A stretch of 31,934 bases of DNA. Source: a virus. A program made the position numbers and the translations under genes. Position 1 is the first letter of the stretch, and each line of letters begins with the position of its first letter. Below are positions 24,587 to 31,903 of this stretch, piece after piece. Where the stretch lies: IMG/VR virus record IMGVR_UViG_3300037502_000944, positions 1 to 31,934 of that record; one strand, 5' to 3'. The notes under the pieces were generated by a model that had not been told where the DNA came from, searched no databases, and saw only the letters and a program-made list of their open reading frames with translations.

Positions 24587-25198
24587 ATGCTGAACTTAAA
24601 CCGTAAGCGACTGTCTAGGGCTATCTGGGACACGCTGTTTGACGGATTAGAGGACTTACCGTGGCAGCGCATTGACGACCTTGAGGCGCTAGACCCCGAC
24701 CGCCAGACAGGTTCCACCAACAACGCCAGCCTGATTGCCCTGTGGGCGGTGAAACGCTATTTCCAGCCAAAGCGCGTGGTGGAAATCGGCACCTATATCG
24801 GCAAATCCACGTTTGTGCTGGCTCGGGGCGATACCGAGGTGCATACCTGCGACATGACGCACAACTTCAAGCTGCCGATCTACGCGAACGTCACGCAGTA
24901 CCACAGCAGTAGTACCGAAATGCTCGCTAAACTGGATGGAACGATAGACCACCTGCACATAGACGGTCGGCTACAGCCCGGTGATCGGGCGCACCTAGAA
25001 CGGCTGTTCCACGCCGACACTATCATCACGCTGGATGACTTTGAGGGCATAGAGAAAGGCGTCTGGAACGCTATGCAGATAAACCTGTCAAATCGGATAT
25101 TGGTTTACCCGCCAGAGAGGCAGTTGACAGAGCGTTTTGCCGTGGGTGATGCTACGACTGCAATCATCCTGCCTAACTTACGGTTAACCGCCCAATGA
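24587..25198 (+). CDS. SAM-dependent class I methyltransferase
   Basis: 203 aa with GAGGA four bases before ATG 24587. Motif I is VVEIGTYIGKST (Glu66-Ile-Gly-Thr-Tyr-Ile-Gly), followed by an acidic-ended strand VHTCDMTHN (post-I) and HIDGRL and TIITLDDFEGI, typical of Methyltransf_24-like O-methyltransferases. It lies head-to-head with a glycosyltransferase, so together they could modify a glycan. The acceptor is not identifiable. Confidence 0.75.
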   Translation: MLNLNRKRLSRAIWDTLFDGLEDLPWQRIDDLEALDPDRQTGSTNNASLIALWAVKRYFQPKRVVEIGTYIGKSTFVLARGDTEVHTCDMTHNFKLPIYANVTQYHSSSTEMLAKLDGTIDHLHIDGRLQPGDRAHLERLFHADTIITLDDFEGIEKGVWNAMQINLSNRILVYPPERQLTERFAVGDATTAIILPNLRLTAQ

Positions 25199-25563: not shown

Positions 25564-27528
25564 ATGGCCGCTGACCGTCAGCGCCTAGCTGCCGCACTCG
25601 CCTATGAGGAAGAACGCCGCCGCAAATTGGCGCAGGCTACGGGTCAGCTAACCGACCGACAGCGTATGGAATTGGCGCTCGCTGACGAACGCAAGCAGCG
25701 CCAGATGGCAGGTGAAACCGCCCCGACCCTTGAGGGCGAGGTGCAACGTTTGACCGGCCTGCAACCAAACATGGAACGCAGCAATATCCTGCCGTTCTAC
25801 AGCCAAGAAACGGGCCTAGTGGCCCCGCAATTTGTATATGACGCAGCCAAGGCTTTTGTAGCCCCCGGATATGCTGCCCGAGGTAAGCGTGTTGACCCTG
25901 CCGAAGCGATGAACGTGGCGGCAAACGTCATGGGCGGCTCTATCGGCGGCTCGGCGCTGGCCCCCGTGGAAGGCGTTGTCGCTGGCATGGGCGCATCGCG
26001 CAAACCGATAAAGGTGACTTATGAAAGACGAGAAGAAGGCCCATTCCTCCGAATCCGAAAGGCAGAAACGGGTGGCGGCAGCAATCAGCAAACGCAAAGA
26101 GTTGTCGGCCCGACTGGAAAAGCTCCGCAACGGACGCCCGCGAGTGGAGCTGTCGGAGGACGAACTAGCGGCGCGGTGGCGCAATCTGATGCGCCATCGT
26201 CGGTTTCAAGACGACGTTTAACACCGGCACAGGTCGCCACCCAATACACCGAAGCTGAATTCGGAACGCCGTACAAACTGCCGAAAAACCCGCCAAGCAG
26301 CCTGCAAAAACAAGCGCCCATTGGCCGTATTTTCTTGGAAGCCACCAAGGAGTCGCCGCAATACAAAGCCGCTACGCTCAAATCATACGAGCGCGTTATG
26401 CCGGACGTATTGCAAAAGGCCAAGGTTAAAAACTACGACGATTTGCTGGAAAAATCGTATCTCCAGCTTGCGAAAGAAGTTAAATCGCAATTTGATGCGC
26501 TGCCAATATCCATGTCTTATTACCGGGGCGGTGAAGGCGCGTACAAAAGCAGCAAAGAGCTGTTTGAGGACATAGATAAACGCGGGCATATGTTCGTTTA
26601 TCAGGGCGGTGACCCGCACGATTTCCTCGGCCAGACCGACCCCGACACCGGCCTGTCTTACAACGAAATGTTTAGGGCCGTTCACGACTATTTCGGCCAC
26701 GCCGTACATCGCAACCAGTTTGGCCCGGTTGGCGAAGAAACCGCATGGGCGGCGCACAGCCAAATGTTCAGCCCGCTGGCCCGCATTGCCATGAGCAGCG
26801 AAACCCGAGGGCAAAACAGCCTCGTCAATTATTCGCCGCTTAACGCAGAGTTGAAGGCGCAGATTTTAGATGCCGAAAAAGATATTGCTGAAGCCGAGCA
26901 ATATGGCTATGGCGCAGATGTCATCAAAGAGCTGCGTCAAAACCGGCAAGACTTGTTTAACGACTTTCAGTACGCCCCGCAGAAGTCGGTGGTGTTGCCT
27001 GCCGAAATGCTCCAGATTGACTACATGGGAGCTATGCCAGCCGGGTTTGAAGGGCTGATATTGCCCGACCCCGGCACCGCGACATCGCTGCCTCTGACGC
27101 ATTACAGCCAAAGCGCCTCGCTCACGCAGACCGATCCGACTCGCTACGGCACCGGCATTAAAGGGCAAGAAGCAGCGCGATTACGTCAAGCGCCAGATGT
27201 GCGCGAGCGCACTTACTTTTACACCGGCAAACCGGGATCGGTACGCCCAGAGGCAGGGTTAGGCCCGAACGTATACACCGCGCAGGGCGAAAACCTTTAC
27301 AACATGAGGCGCGACCCCGCGAAGCTCGGAGTGCTGGCCGATGTAGTCAATACCACCTCACCGCTGGCCCGCATGAACCCCGGTGGCGTTGATGATTTCC
27401 AACGCGCCAATGATTTTGAGCGCCTGATGCGAGCCTATGGCTACAGCGGGTATTACAGCCCCGAAGCCAAGGTTGCCACCGTGTTTGAACCCATGAATGT
27501 GCGACTCGCCAAGGCGTTGAGACGCTGA
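25564..27528 (+). CDS. Polyvalent-type protein: HDYFGH/ETRGQN module plus ART-like end
   Basis: 654 aa. Residues 1-75 are a charged helix. Residues about 78-150 form a module with a SGLVAP-like NILPFYSQETGLVAPQFVYD lead, then MNVAANVMGGSIGGSA, as found in phage-borne virion proteins. Residues 153-219 are low-complexity and overlap the nested frame described separately. Residues about 250-430 hold MFRAVHDYFGHAVHRNQFG (His374, Asp375, His379) and GEETAWAAHSQMF (Glu391, Glu392, His398), then SSETRGQNS (Glu413, Arg415, Gln417, Asn418). The last 140 residues start LTHYSQS (His513), contain TYFYTGK, and end in KVATVFEPMNVRL, resembling polyvalent ADP-ribosyltransferase-like ends. Its place before the terminase genes suggests virion delivery; the reactions are unknown. 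Confidence 0.68.
   Translation: MAADRQRLAAALAYEEERRRKLAQATGQLTDRQRMELALADERKQRQMAGETAPTLEGEVQRLTGLQPNMERSNILPFYSQETGLVAPQFVYDAAKAFVAPGYAARGKRVDPAEAMNVAANVMGGSIGGSALAPVEGVVAGMGASRKPIKVTYERREEGPFLRIRKAETGGGSNQQTQRVVGPTGKAPQRTPASGAVGGRTSGAVAQSDAPSSVSRRRLTPAQVATQYTEAEFGTPYKLPKNPPSSLQKQAPIGRIFLEATKESPQYKAATLKSYERVMPDVLQKAKVKNYDDLLEKSYLQLAKEVKSQFDALPISMSYYRGGEGAYKSSKELFEDIDKRGHMFVYQGGDPHDFLGQTDPDTGLSYNEMFRAVHDYFGHAVHRNQFGPVGEETAWAAHSQMFSPLARIAMSSETRGQNSLVNYSPLNAELKAQILDAEKDIAEAEQYGYGADVIKELRQNRQDLFNDFQYAPQKSVVLPAEMLQIDYMGAMPAGFEGLILPDPGTATSLPLTHYSQSASLTQTDPTRYGTGIKGQEAARLRQAPDVRERTYFYTGKPGSVRPEAGLGPNVYTAQGENLYNMRRDPAKLGVLADVVNTTSPLARMNPGGVDDFQRANDFERLMRAYGYSGYYSPEAKVATVFEPMNVRLAKALRR
26021..26221 (+). 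CDS. Nested frame of 66 codons inside the 654-aa gene
   Basis: ATG 26021 follows AAGGTGA (26011-26017) and stops at TAA 26219-26221, in the +1 frame relative to the host gene. It reads MKDEKKAHSSESERQKRVAA and then a charged coiled coil (KELSARLEKLRNGRPRVE, EDELAARWRNLMRHRR). By hand count about 68% of its third bases are G or C, against about 42% for the outer frame in the same stretch, which instead reads as Arg/Gly/Ser low complexity. It could be a true nested gene or the remnant of a separate gene fused into the outer frame by an indel. Confidence 0.5.
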   Translation: MKDEKKAHSSESERQKRVAAAISKRKELSARLEKLRNGRPRVELSEDELAARWRNLMRHRRFQDDV

Positions 27529-27567: not shown

Positions 27568-27822
27568 ATGGCACGACCTAAAGGATCGCCCAACAAGGCA
27601 ACCGCAGAGGCCAGAGAAGCAATAGCCCGTCTTGTAGACGGCAACGCCCATCGCCTTAACATCTGGCTGGACGAAATCTACGAGACGAAAGGCGCAGAAG
27701 CCGCATGGCGCTGCATGATGGATGTCATTGAATACCATGTGCCGAAGCTCGCTCGTCACGAACACACCGGCCAGAACGGCGACAAGATCAAGGTGGAAGT
27801 GACATGGATGGCTCCCGAGTAG
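27568..27822 (+). CDS. terS: Terminase small subunit candidate
   Basis: 84 aa. It begins ARPKGSPNKATAEAREAIAR, a basic DNA-binding-like start, with LNIWLDEIYETKGAEAAWRC and then EYHVPKLARHEHTG, a pattern common in phage small terminases and upstream partners of terL. It overlaps the large subunit start by 19 nt. It should recognise the packaging site. No full HTH can be shown, so the call leans on neighbourhood. Confidence 0.68.
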   Translation: MARPKGSPNKATAEAREAIARLVDGNAHRLNIWLDEIYETKGAEAAWRCMMDVIEYHVPKLARHEHTGQNGDKIKVEVTWMAPE

Positions 27823-29144
27823 TCATCCCCTACCGCCCACGAAAGGCGTTCATGCCTTTCCACAACCGGACGCAGCGGTGGGCTTGCCTAGTCGCCCATC
27901 GTCGCGCTGGTAAAACAGTCGCAGCCGTCAACGACATCATCCGAGCAGCCATCACTTACCAAGGTGAGCGCGGGTTGTTCGCCTACATCTGCCCCTTCAG
28001 ATCGCAAGCCAAGTCCGTTGCGTGGCAATATTTCCTTGAGTTCGCAGACCCCATCATTCAGAGCAAGAACGAGCAGGAGTTGCTCATTACCCTGATCAAC
28101 GGCACCCAAATACGGCTCGCTGGATCAGACAACGGCGATGCGCTCCGAGGTCTGGGACTGTCAGGGGTTTTCTGCGACGAATATGCCGACTGGAAGGTGG
28201 GCGTGTGGGGGAACGTGATTCGGCCTGCTTTGGCTGACAAGCAGGGTTGGGCCGTGTTCGCATCCACGCCGAAAGGCCACAACCACTTCTATGACATTTT
28301 CCAACTTGCCACTCGGTTCCCTAGCGAGTGGTTCCTGCTGCGCCTTCCCGCCTCAACCAGCGGGCTTCTGCCGGCGACAGAGCTAGCCGCCGCAAAGGCG
28401 CAATTATCCGACGATCAGTATTTGCAGGAAATGGAGGTTTCGTTTGAAGCCGCAATCGTCGGAGCTTTTTTCGGCAAGGAAATGCGAGAGGCAGAGCAGC
28501 AAGGGCGCATCTGCCAAGTGCCTTACGACCCGAACCTGCCTGTCTATAGCAGTTGGGATTTGGGGTATAGAGACGACACGGCGATATGGTTCTACCAGAT
28601 CGGGCGCGGGGAAATCCGCGTCATAGACTTCCACGCTGTCTCGGGTGCTGACATCTACGACATTGCAGGCACGGTGATGGCAAAGCCTTACCGCTACGCT
28701 CGCCACTACCTACCGCATGACGCCAGAGCCAAGAGCTTGCAGACTGGCAAGAGCATTATTGAGCAGCTGGCAACGCATTTGGATGTCGCCAAACTCGCTG
28801 TCGTTCCCGACATCGGCGTACAGAGCGGCATACAGGCTGTGCGTATGATTCTGCCGCGTGTGTGGTTTGACGCAGAGAAGTGCCGCGAGGGTATTGAGGC
28901 GTTGAAGCAATATCAACGCGAGTACGACGAGAATAAGAAAGCCTACAGGCAGTCACCGCGTCACGATTGGACTAGCCACCCGAGTGACGCTTTCCGTATG
29001 CTTGCGGTATCATACGCCGAACAGGCTGACAAGACCCCGACCCTTGAGCCTAAACCGCTAATCGTCGGGCCAGAGAACACCGTGACACTTAACGATATGT
29101 GGGCGGTTCACGACCGCCAAGGCTCTCGGAGGGCAAGGATATGA
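27804..29144 (+). CDS. terL: Terminase large subunit
   Basis: 446 aa. It packages DNA using ATP and cuts it with an RNase H-like nuclease. Walker A-like VAHRRAGKTVAAV (A31-T38), Walker B-like GVFCDEYAD (Asp125-Glu126), coupling motif STPKGHNHFYD, nuclease SWDLGYRDDTAIW (Asp252) and HPSDAFRM (Asp395) are all in place. The start at ATG 27804 lies inside the small subunit gene. The length is normal for podoviral TerL. The stop overlaps the next start (ATGA). Confidence 0.92.
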   Translation: MDGSRVVIPYRPRKAFMPFHNRTQRWACLVAHRRAGKTVAAVNDIIRAAITYQGERGLFAYICPFRSQAKSVAWQYFLEFADPIIQSKNEQELLITLINGTQIRLAGSDNGDALRGLGLSGVFCDEYADWKVGVWGNVIRPALADKQGWAVFASTPKGHNHFYDIFQLATRFPSEWFLLRLPASTSGLLPATELAAAKAQLSDDQYLQEMEVSFEAAIVGAFFGKEMREAEQQGRICQVPYDPNLPVYSSWDLGYRDDTAIWFYQIGRGEIRVIDFHAVSGADIYDIAGTVMAKPYRYARHYLPHDARAKSLQTGKSIIEQLATHLDVAKLAVVPDIGVQSGIQAVRMILPRVWFDAEKCREGIEALKQYQREYDENKKAYRQSPRHDWTSHPSDAFRMLAVSYAEQADKTPTLEPKPLIVGPENTVTLNDMWAVHDRQGSRRARI

Positions 29145-29589: not shown

Positions 29590-29879
29590 GCGCAGCGTGG
29601 CAGCGTAGCGAGGGCAAGAACCCGAAGGGCGGTCTAAACGCCAAGGGTCGCGCCTCTTACAAAGCCGAGACGGGTGGCACGTTGAAGCCCCCGGTAAAGA
29701 AGGGTGACAACCCGCGCCGCGCCTCGTTCCTCGCCCGCATGGGCAATATGCCGGGGCCGATGGAAAAGAACGGTAAGCCCACGCGCCTTGCCCTCGCCCT
29801 CAAGGCTTGGGGTGCGAGCAGTAAAGAGGACGCCAAGGCCAAGGCCCGAGCAATTAGCGCCCGTAACAAGGGGAAATGA
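29586..29879 (+). CDS. DUF6321-like conserved phage protein (97 aa)
   Basis: A GTG start at 29586 overlaps the previous stop as GTGA. The family pattern is clear: AAWQRSEGKNPKGGLNAKGR, then ETGGTLKPPV, RRASFLARMGNMPGPM and KPTRLALALKAWG. It is basic and mostly disordered. Widely carried by tailed phages, often near terminase and portal; the function is unknown. Its stop overlaps the portal start. Confidence 0.75.
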   Translation: MSAAWQRSEGKNPKGGLNAKGRASYKAETGGTLKPPVKKGDNPRRASFLARMGNMPGPMEKNGKPTRLALALKAWGASSKEDAKAKARAISARNKGK

Positions 29880-31903
29880 AGATGGACGTACTGGTACAGC
29901 CGGAACTCAACAAGTACCTCCGCATTATCGGGCAGTACGACAACGAATTTGCCAAGTGGACGGCGCGAACCAAGAAGATCATCAAGCGTTACCGCGACGA
30001 CACCCGTGGGCAGACGCTGACTGAATCTGCAAAGTTCAACATCCTTTGGAGCAACGTGCAGACGCTCAAACCTGCCGTGTACGCCAAGCTCCCGAAGGCC
30101 GACATCAGCCGCCGCTTTGGTGACAACGACCCCGTTGGCCGCGTGGCAGGGCAGCTGCTAGAGCGAGCCATTGATTTTGAGATTGAGCATTATTCTGACT
30201 ACCGCTCCACGATGGCGTATTGCGTAGAGGATCGCTTCCTCGGTGGACGCGGCACGGCGTGGGTACGGTACGAGCCGCACACCGCACCGATTGGCATTGA
30301 GGACGATGGCGTATCGGTCACCCCGAACATTGAGCAGGGTGAGGGTGCGCCGCCTGCGTTAGAGCAGATTGAGTACGAGTGCGCCCCGGTGGATTACGTC
30401 CATTGGCGCGACTTTGGTCACAGCACCGCCCGCACATGGGAAGAAGTTGGACAGGTGTGGCGCTGGGTCTATATGACCCGTGAGGCTCTCGTAGAGCGGT
30501 TTGGCGAGGAAGTAGCCGCCAAGATACCGCTAGACCAAGGCCCAGAGCCGCTGAACGCCTACAACGAAAACAAGCGCCTCTATAACCGCGCCAAGATTTG
30601 TGAACTTTGGGACAAGGAAACCCAGAAGGTTTATTGGTTCTCCAAGGGGATGCCGCAGATTATTGACGTACGCGACGATCCGCTCGGACTTGAGGGATTC
30701 TTCCCCTGCCCGCGCCCGCTGTACGCCACGACGACCAGCGATACGCTCGTCCCGGTTCCCGACTTCGTGCTGTACCAAGATCAGGCGATGGAGTTGGACA
30801 TTCTCTCCGACCGCATTGACGGCTTGGTGAAATCGCTGCGTGTACGTGGCGTGTACGACGCCAGCCAGCCTGCGCTGCAACGCTTGATGACGGAGGGTGA
30901 TAACAATGCTCTCATTCCAGTTGATAAGTGGATGGCTTTCAGCGAAAAAGGCGGCCTTAAAGGCAGCATTGACCTGCTTCCGCTGGACACGCTCGCCAAC
31001 GCCCTCCTCCAATGCTACCGAGCGCGAGAGGACATCAAAGCCCAAATCTACGAAATCACGGGTATTGCGGACATTATCCGTGGTGTCTCGGCAGCCTCCG
31101 AAACTGCCACGGCGCAGCAGATCAAAGGCCAGTACGCAGGATTAAGACTGCGCTCCATGCAGGAGGAGGTGGCGATGTTTGCCGCCGAACTCATCCGGCT
31201 GAAGGCGCAGGTCATGTGTATGCACTACCAGCCAGAGACAATTCTGGCCTACGCCGCTGCCAACCAGATGACGCCAGCGGATCAACAGTTGATCCCGCAG
31301 GCGCTAGAACTGATCCGCAACAAGCCGCTGCGTAACTTCCGCGTAGACATTGCCTCTGACTCGCTTGTGATGCTGGACGAGAACCAGAACAAGCAGGATC
31401 GGCTGCAATTCCTACAGGCGTTTGGTGGTTTCCTCGCGCAGGCGCTCCCGGTCGGTCAGGCGTCACCCGAAATGGTGCCGATGATGATGGAGTTGCTGCG
31501 CTTTGGTATGCAGGCGTTCAAGGCTGCCCGTCCGATTGAGGGTCAGATTGACGCCACGTTGCAGCAGTTGCAGCAGGCCGCCATGCAGCAGCAGCCCGAT
31601 GGCGAGCAACAGGGCAAGCAGGCCGAGTTGCAGCAAAAGGGTCAGATGGAGCAGGGCCGTATGCAGATGGAGGCGGCGCTACAGCAGGCCAAACTCCAGC
31701 AGCAGATGCAGATGGAGCAGCTCAAGAACCAGACCAAGATGGCGATGGAGCAGCAAAAGCAGCAGTTTGAGGCGCAGTTGGAGGCGATGAAGCTGCAAAG
31801 CCAGCAGGAAGCCGCCAAGTACAAGGCCGACATGGACGCCCAGACGCGCTTAATCATCGCGCAGATGAACAAAACTTTACCAACGCTACCCGTTAATCAA
31901 TGA
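29876..31903 (+). CDS. Portal protein (podovirus type)
   Basis: 675 aa. It forms the dodecameric ring through which DNA enters and leaves. The long helical/beta clip body starts with a coil (EFAKWTARTKKIIKRYRDDT), contains NILWSNVQTLKPAVYAKLPK, and the wing and stem core includes YEITGIADIIRGVSAASETA, a strong portal signature. The last 120 residues are a Gln/Met/Lys coiled coil (QQKGQMEQGRMQMEAALQQA), like the long barrel of P22 portal. ATG 29876 overlaps the previous stop, and a second ATG lies at 29882. The stop overlaps the next gene (ATGA). Confidence 0.88.
   Translation: MKMDVLVQPELNKYLRIIGQYDNEFAKWTARTKKIIKRYRDDTRGQTLTESAKFNILWSNVQTLKPAVYAKLPKADISRRFGDNDPVGRVAGQLLERAIDFEIEHYSDYRSTMAYCVEDRFLGGRGTAWVRYEPHTAPIGIEDDGVSVTPNIEQGEGAPPALEQIEYECAPVDYVHWRDFGHSTARTWEEVGQVWRWVYMTREALVERFGEEVAAKIPLDQGPEPLNAYNENKRLYNRAKICELWDKETQKVYWFSKGMPQIIDVRDDPLGLEGFFPCPRPLYATTTSDTLVPVPDFVLYQDQAMELDILSDRIDGLVKSLRVRGVYDASQPALQRLMTEGDNNALIPVDKWMAFSEKGGLKGSIDLLPLDTLANALLQCYRAREDIKAQIYEITGIADIIRGVSAASETATAQQIKGQYAGLRLRSMQEEVAMFAAELIRLKAQVMCMHYQPETILAYAAANQMTPADQQLIPQALELIRNKPLRNFRVDIASDSLVMLDENQNKQDRLQFLQAFGGFLAQALPVGQASPEMVPMMMELLRFGMQAFKAARPIEGQIDATLQQLQQAAMQQQPDGEQQGKQAELQQKGQMEQGRMQMEAALQQAKLQQQMQMEQLKNQTKMAMEQQKQQFEAQLEAMKLQSQQEAAKYKADMDAQTRLIIAQMNKTLPTLPVNQ

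Follow-up and report, generated by a model that had tools for sequence, protein, structure and literature searches.

RESULTS

A 66-codon frame inside a 654-codon phage gene

Does a long phage gene conceal a second, complete gene in another frame, or has it been pieced together from several genes by a lost stop codon? The question arises in the virus record IMGVR_UViG_3300037502_000944, a tailed phage sequence of 31,934 bases, which in its entirety forms the window analyzed here. At 25564–27528 (+) the window carries a gene for a putative polyvalent-type protein of 654 aa (the outer gene). Nested within this gene is a 66-codon ORF (the inner gene) that occupies the +1 frame and runs from ATG to TAA at 26021–26221 (+), and the outer frame continues uninterrupted across the whole overlap. 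A Shine–Dalgarno-like site, AAGGTGA, precedes the inner ATG at 26011–26017 (+) and is written within outer codons. The initial annotation had described this ORF and its upstream site, and the sequence bears out both. Its estimates of third-position GC were accurate as well, with values of 68.2% for the inner frame and, over the same bases, 41.8% for the outer frame; outside the overlap the outer gene has 63–64%. Codon use in the overlap was, as had been claimed, better in the inner frame than in the outer (codon-adaptation-like index of 0.68 versus 0.52), and the index is 0.73–0.76 in the remainder of the outer gene. The outer frame does read through the sequence TTATGA at the inner start, at 26019–26024 rather than at 26018–26023, a difference of one base from the position first reported.

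The right end of the window holds terminase and portal genes, identified by PHROGs profile matches: the terminase large subunit at 27804–29144 (+; phrog_2, E 9.6e-31) and the portal protein at 29876–31903 (+; phrog_12082, E 3e-187). Directly upstream of the outer gene, a gene at 25195–25563 matches DUF5856 (1e-22) and phrog_858, which is annotated as a starvation-inducible transcriptional regulator. Gene order varies by clade. The nested pair of the window lies just upstream of the terminase gene, and that of locus L107 lies between the genes for the terminase large subunit and the portal.

An open +1 frame of this length is not remarkable. The inner frame stayed open in ∼25% of synonymous-codon resamplings of the window, and across 26 relatives the median share of trials with an open +1 frame was 32%. 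Because synonymous resampling so often leaves the frame open, an open frame by itself argues only weakly for a gene. The evidence that exceeds chance comes from relatives, in how the frame is conserved and selected, and there the substitution pattern is remarkable.

Both frames are kept in relatives

Whether viral contigs were queried with the inner or the outer protein, the same group of sequences was retrieved. A scan with outer patterns from downstream of the overlap found 134 relatives, and 80 of these were retained. Loci collected in this way carry no bias towards the inner frame, and all of those covering the overlap have the inner ORF. Overall, a complete ORF lies inside the outer gene, intact and at the same place, in 154 of the 155 loci that cover the overlap start, as expected of a nested gene. 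The loci come from about 100 metagenomes, counted from the sample numbers in contig names. Since several of the 155 are different cuts of one contig, distinct sequences give a fair count: there are 74 distinct inner proteins of 53–66 aa, each with a stop and with a start at (T/C)ATG, the ATG sitting in this element of one conserved outer codon.

Among close loci with full coverage, both frames are open in every case. In these loci the inner ORF is 61–66 codons long; it begins at the shared outer codon, behind a ribosome-binding site, and is closed by a stop of its own. Full-length outer homologs are 78–96% identical, and wherever the inner ORF changes length in frame, the outer alignment has a matching in-frame gap. 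Two loci cut by contig ends still display the C-terminal half of the inner protein. The inner frame is kept down to ∼44% outer identity, with outer homologs at 43–46% still carrying the +1 ORF, and distant inner proteins can be aligned as a single family (K 5, S 9 and 12, R 54 and 58, in window numbering).

These alignments also bear on the proposal that separate genes, two or three by the initial annotation's count, were joined by an indel or a recent fusion. An assembly error or fusion that removed a stop near 26020 would account for the fall in outer codon usage over the overlap, and one inserted base would indeed yield TAATGA, a stop/start junction. But the junction codon, TAT (CAT in 4 loci), is read through in every covering relative, in independent assemblies, and the outer motif and linker of this region can likewise be aligned in distant homologs. 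Because no relative covering the junction has TAATGA at the inner start, we reject this explanation as extremely improbable.

Outside the viral contigs, a search of bacterial and archaeal genomes with a diverse alignment returned one full relative, a 3.3-kb Burkholderiales MAG contig with an intact copy of the inner gene; a search of such genomes with close sequences returned nothing. On the strength of this one contig, freshwater Burkholderiales are a possible host group. Among isolated phage genomes, three inner queries gave no inner match beyond chance. The stretches fetched from Limnohabitans phage DC33, phage zth2-2 and Microcystis phage Mel-JY33 contain no inner gene; the first two phages share only the C-terminal part of the outer protein, and the third shares chiefly its central domain. 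The DC33 record (locus L059, PQ492659.1) is 39 kb long and filed under Inoviridae, a classification that looks wrong, and a 9.4-kb gene of this phage has a domain common to these polyvalent-type proteins.

The inner gene has a conserved start signal

A match of at least 4 nt to AAGGAGGTGA, the complement of the anti-Shine–Dalgarno sequence, lies upstream of the inner ATG in 72 of 74 distinct relatives (97%), and 77% of the 74 have a match of 5 nt or more. For other +1-frame ATGs of the same outer genes, the corresponding figures are 20% and 7%. The ribosome-binding site is kept although the outer residues encoded there differ between clades. By sequence, then, the inner gene has a start signal of its own, comprising a conserved ATG and a Shine–Dalgarno-like site. 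Because both elements are conserved, we strongly infer that the inner gene is translated by internal initiation. In the clade that includes L049, L054, L163 and L165, the likely outer start lies 5–8 codons upstream of the codon containing the inner ATG; two gene starts, in different frames, probably fall within ∼25 bases of each other there.

The two frames divide the constraint

The substitution pattern refutes the idea that the inner frame is a by-product of outer conservation and base composition, encoding no protein. The decisive comparison is that of the window with its nearest relative, L002, from which it differs at six bases of the overlap: each of these alters the outer protein and leaves the inner one unchanged. 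Of the 126 outer codons that differ between the two outside the overlap, 106 do so synonymously and 20 nonsynonymously. We estimated omega from all pairs of equal length, which share lineages, under a simple substitution model, and obtained inner values of 0.29 (95% 0.16–0.47) and 0.34 (0.24–0.48) for the two length classes that predominate in the window's clade. Control windows read in the same frame further downstream gave 0.66–1.57 in this clade, every one of them far above the inner values. Outer omega within the overlap was 0.74 and 0.95, versus medians of 0.12 and 0.21 in the controls. Inner omega was just moderately low, at 0.69 (95% 0.52–0.94), in the largest of the distant clades, where the inner protein has 61 aa. 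The position of substitutions shows the same trend: outer position 3 holds 70–75% of them in the controls, and in the overlap they shift to outer position 1, equivalent to position 3 of the inner codons. Compared frame by frame across relatives, the overlap is thus under purifying selection that acts specifically on the inner frame.

This selection is not uniform along the overlap. In its first part, segment A (26020–26058, +), with the outer motif YERREEGPFLRIR, conservation is mainly in the outer frame: outer omega is ∼0.5 or lower and inner omega is ∼1. The outer frame is the chief constraint on these first 13 outer codons (YxxRxEGPFxRvR), and the inner frame on those that follow. In segment B (26059–26221, +), where the outer protein has a low-complexity linker, the window's clade gives an inner omega of 0.30–0.35 and an outer omega of 0.9–1.25. 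Outer residues 166–214 are among the most variable of the outer protein, whereas the inner protein is conserved there. The split indicates that the two genes share out the constraint along the overlap.

These data leave very little room for the by-product explanation. The openness of the +1 frame in a median of 32% of resamplings speaks for it; the variable outer residues opposite a conserved inner protein, the six close differences silent only in the inner frame, the low inner omega and the conserved ribosome-binding site amid differing outer residues all speak against it, and we regard it as highly unlikely. The initial annotation had held that outer homologs aligning continuously through this region, with purifying selection in the outer frame alone, would tell against an overlapping gene. 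Such continuous homologs exist, but selection is not confined to the outer frame, since from overlap codon 14 to the end the main constraint is that of the inner frame. The true overlapping gene that it had offered as one possibility is strongly supported by conservation and selection in the relatives.

The outer protein

The 654-aa outer frame is also a real gene. Its product has a phrog_3170 domain at residues 359–438; no Pfam model scored above its cut-off for the outer family. An AlphaFold model of the outer core has a pLDDT of 91. The C-terminal domain (27064–27525, +) has a predicted ADP-ribosyltransferase/RES-toxin-like fold, and the top Foldseek row for it was AcrIF11 (6kyf, E 0.22). 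VIA-align gave Z scores of 6.2–6.6 to AcrIF11 (6kyf), MbcT and NatT, proteins of the ADP-ribosyltransferase and NAD-acting RES types, over 113–130 residues, which is below the level taken as sure and hence suggestive, not proof. A similar domain occurs in a pre-ejectosome chain of cyanophage A4 (9k3a_B, Z 5.2). Across 31 outer homologs, H513 is invariant and Y551/Y553 are nearly invariant. These data suggest that the outer product is a phage protein of the polyvalent type whose C-terminal domain is putatively ADP-ribosyltransferase-like.

The central domain (26667–26820) contains a strongly conserved motif, FRAVHDxxGHA...GEExAW...ETRGQNS, whose spacing resembles a metal site (HxxxxH, cf. aromatic amino acid hydroxylases). 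Uncharacterized proteins of mycobacteriophages and cyanophages contain the motif as well. Foldseek rows pointed to a phenylalanine hydroxylase fold for this domain; because VIA-align covered just 44 residues of helix, we make no such claim.

The inner protein

The inner protein is 53–66 aa long and basic (pI ∼10). It is charged throughout, and inspection of its sequence revealed no signal sequence or hydrophobic stretch. The structural model (pLDDT 75, pTM 0.40) predicts, with moderate confidence, a flexible N terminus followed by two helices, at residues 10–35 and 46–63. A fold search of the viral structure library with this model gave no match. Comparisons with PHROGs, Pfam, NCBIfam, PADLOC and PDB sequences gave no credible match either, and scattered hits to coiled-coil families were taken as noise. 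Two of 55 inner family members matched the addiction-module family TIGR02574 weakly (14–15 bits). With a best score of 14.8 bits against a cut-off of 31.9, the inner protein does not belong to TIGR02574/PF09720, and other coiled-coil families score as well or higher. PF09720 had no match in 11 related phage records.

A probable origin by overprinting

The sole exception among the 155 loci, L057, has an outer identity of 37–38% and no recognizable inner gene. At the same spot (7708 onward) L057 has an ATG, an AAGGA site and a +1 frame open for 54 codons, with no similarity to the family. This ORF does not match the inner family profile and is either a remnant or a chance ORF. L057 does have a recognizable counterpart of the first outer motif, and in a midpoint-rooted tree of 31 outer cores it falls outside all carriers of the inner gene. 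This outgroup lacks the inner gene yet has the motif, which fits a probable origin of the inner gene by overprinting, in an outer linker that the carriers' common ancestor already had. A loss from this single genome is a possible alternative.

DISCUSSION

The ORF at 26021–26221 is almost certainly a genuine, fully nested overlapping gene, maintained in a group of uncultured tailed phages. Its expression can be pictured as follows. The ribosome-binding site written in outer codons would place a ribosome on the (T/C)ATG of the conserved outer codon, and this ribosome would then read the +1 frame to the inner gene's own stop. After about codon 13 of the overlap, the outer frame would serve as a loosely constrained linker, kept open because the N-terminal part must be joined to the putatively enzymatic C-terminal core.

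What the inner protein does is a matter of weighing several possibilities. One reading with a fair claim, though short of probable, is that the inner gene is independent of the outer, encoding an accessory protein that acts on the host or on phage DNA and was overprinted in a tolerant linker; our estimate here covers many different functions. Newly overprinted viral proteins are often accessory, and the inner protein is small, basic and helical, with no known family. On the other side, it is single-copy in each of six long contigs (52–56 kb), and scans of viral contigs with inner patterns found no free-standing copy outside an outer gene, observations that discriminate only weakly. Our own tentative best guess is that the inner protein may instead work with the outer protein, as a chaperone, a packaging adaptor or an inhibitor of the ADP-ribosyltransferase-like domain before injection. 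We consider such a partnership because the two genes share a message, occur in one copy per contig and are never found apart; this co-occurrence is partly forced by the overlap and so is weak evidence. More specifically, and with less likelihood, the nested protein could be a built-in inhibitor or chaperone that restrains or packages an injected ADP-ribosyltransferase-like effector until injection. A role as a head or packaging component, such as a terminase or portal accessory or a small basic internal protein, seems doubtful. The basic pI would suit it, as would the position of the gene just upstream of the terminase in the window and between the terminase large subunit and the portal in L107. 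But gene order differs in the window's clade, and the inner protein has no similarity to any packaging family. Our weak preference places the partner role ahead of the packaging role and about level with the independent accessory role.

Fully nested overlapping genes are known in phages, among them lambda Rz/Rz1 and phiX174 E inside D. Like these, the inner gene is small and complete, lies in a larger gene but in a different frame, begins at a start site of its own and is conserved in relatives. It differs in that we found no sequence similarity to either pair and in that its host gene encodes a polyvalent protein. Unlike the Rz/Rz1 spanin, the inner protein has no hydrophobic segment and, by sequence, is not a lysis protein. 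It is small and helical like the antitoxin-like addiction-module component TIGR02574, but it is not a member of that family.

Phage polyvalent proteins carry ADP-ribosyltransferase domains (Iyer et al. 2017, PMC5512222), and the outer protein resembles them in being large and multidomain, with varied N termini and a putative ADP-ribosyltransferase-like domain at the C terminus. Under the word 'overlapping', the main text of that paper has no nested gene in polyvalent proteins, and a limited search of open papers gave no description of a nested gene family in a polyvalent phage gene. Gene callers usually skip wholly nested genes, so the inner family is likely missing from annotations, and its existence suggests scanning phage polyvalent genes for others. 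If the inner protein does control the outer effector, the locus would be a compact coupling of a toxin-like enzyme to its partner. It is in any case a clean example of two frames dividing constraint along one stretch. Next to lambda Rz/Rz1 and phiX174 E/D, then, the nested arrangement is of a known kind; what is new is the inner family, deeply conserved inside a polyvalent phage gene.
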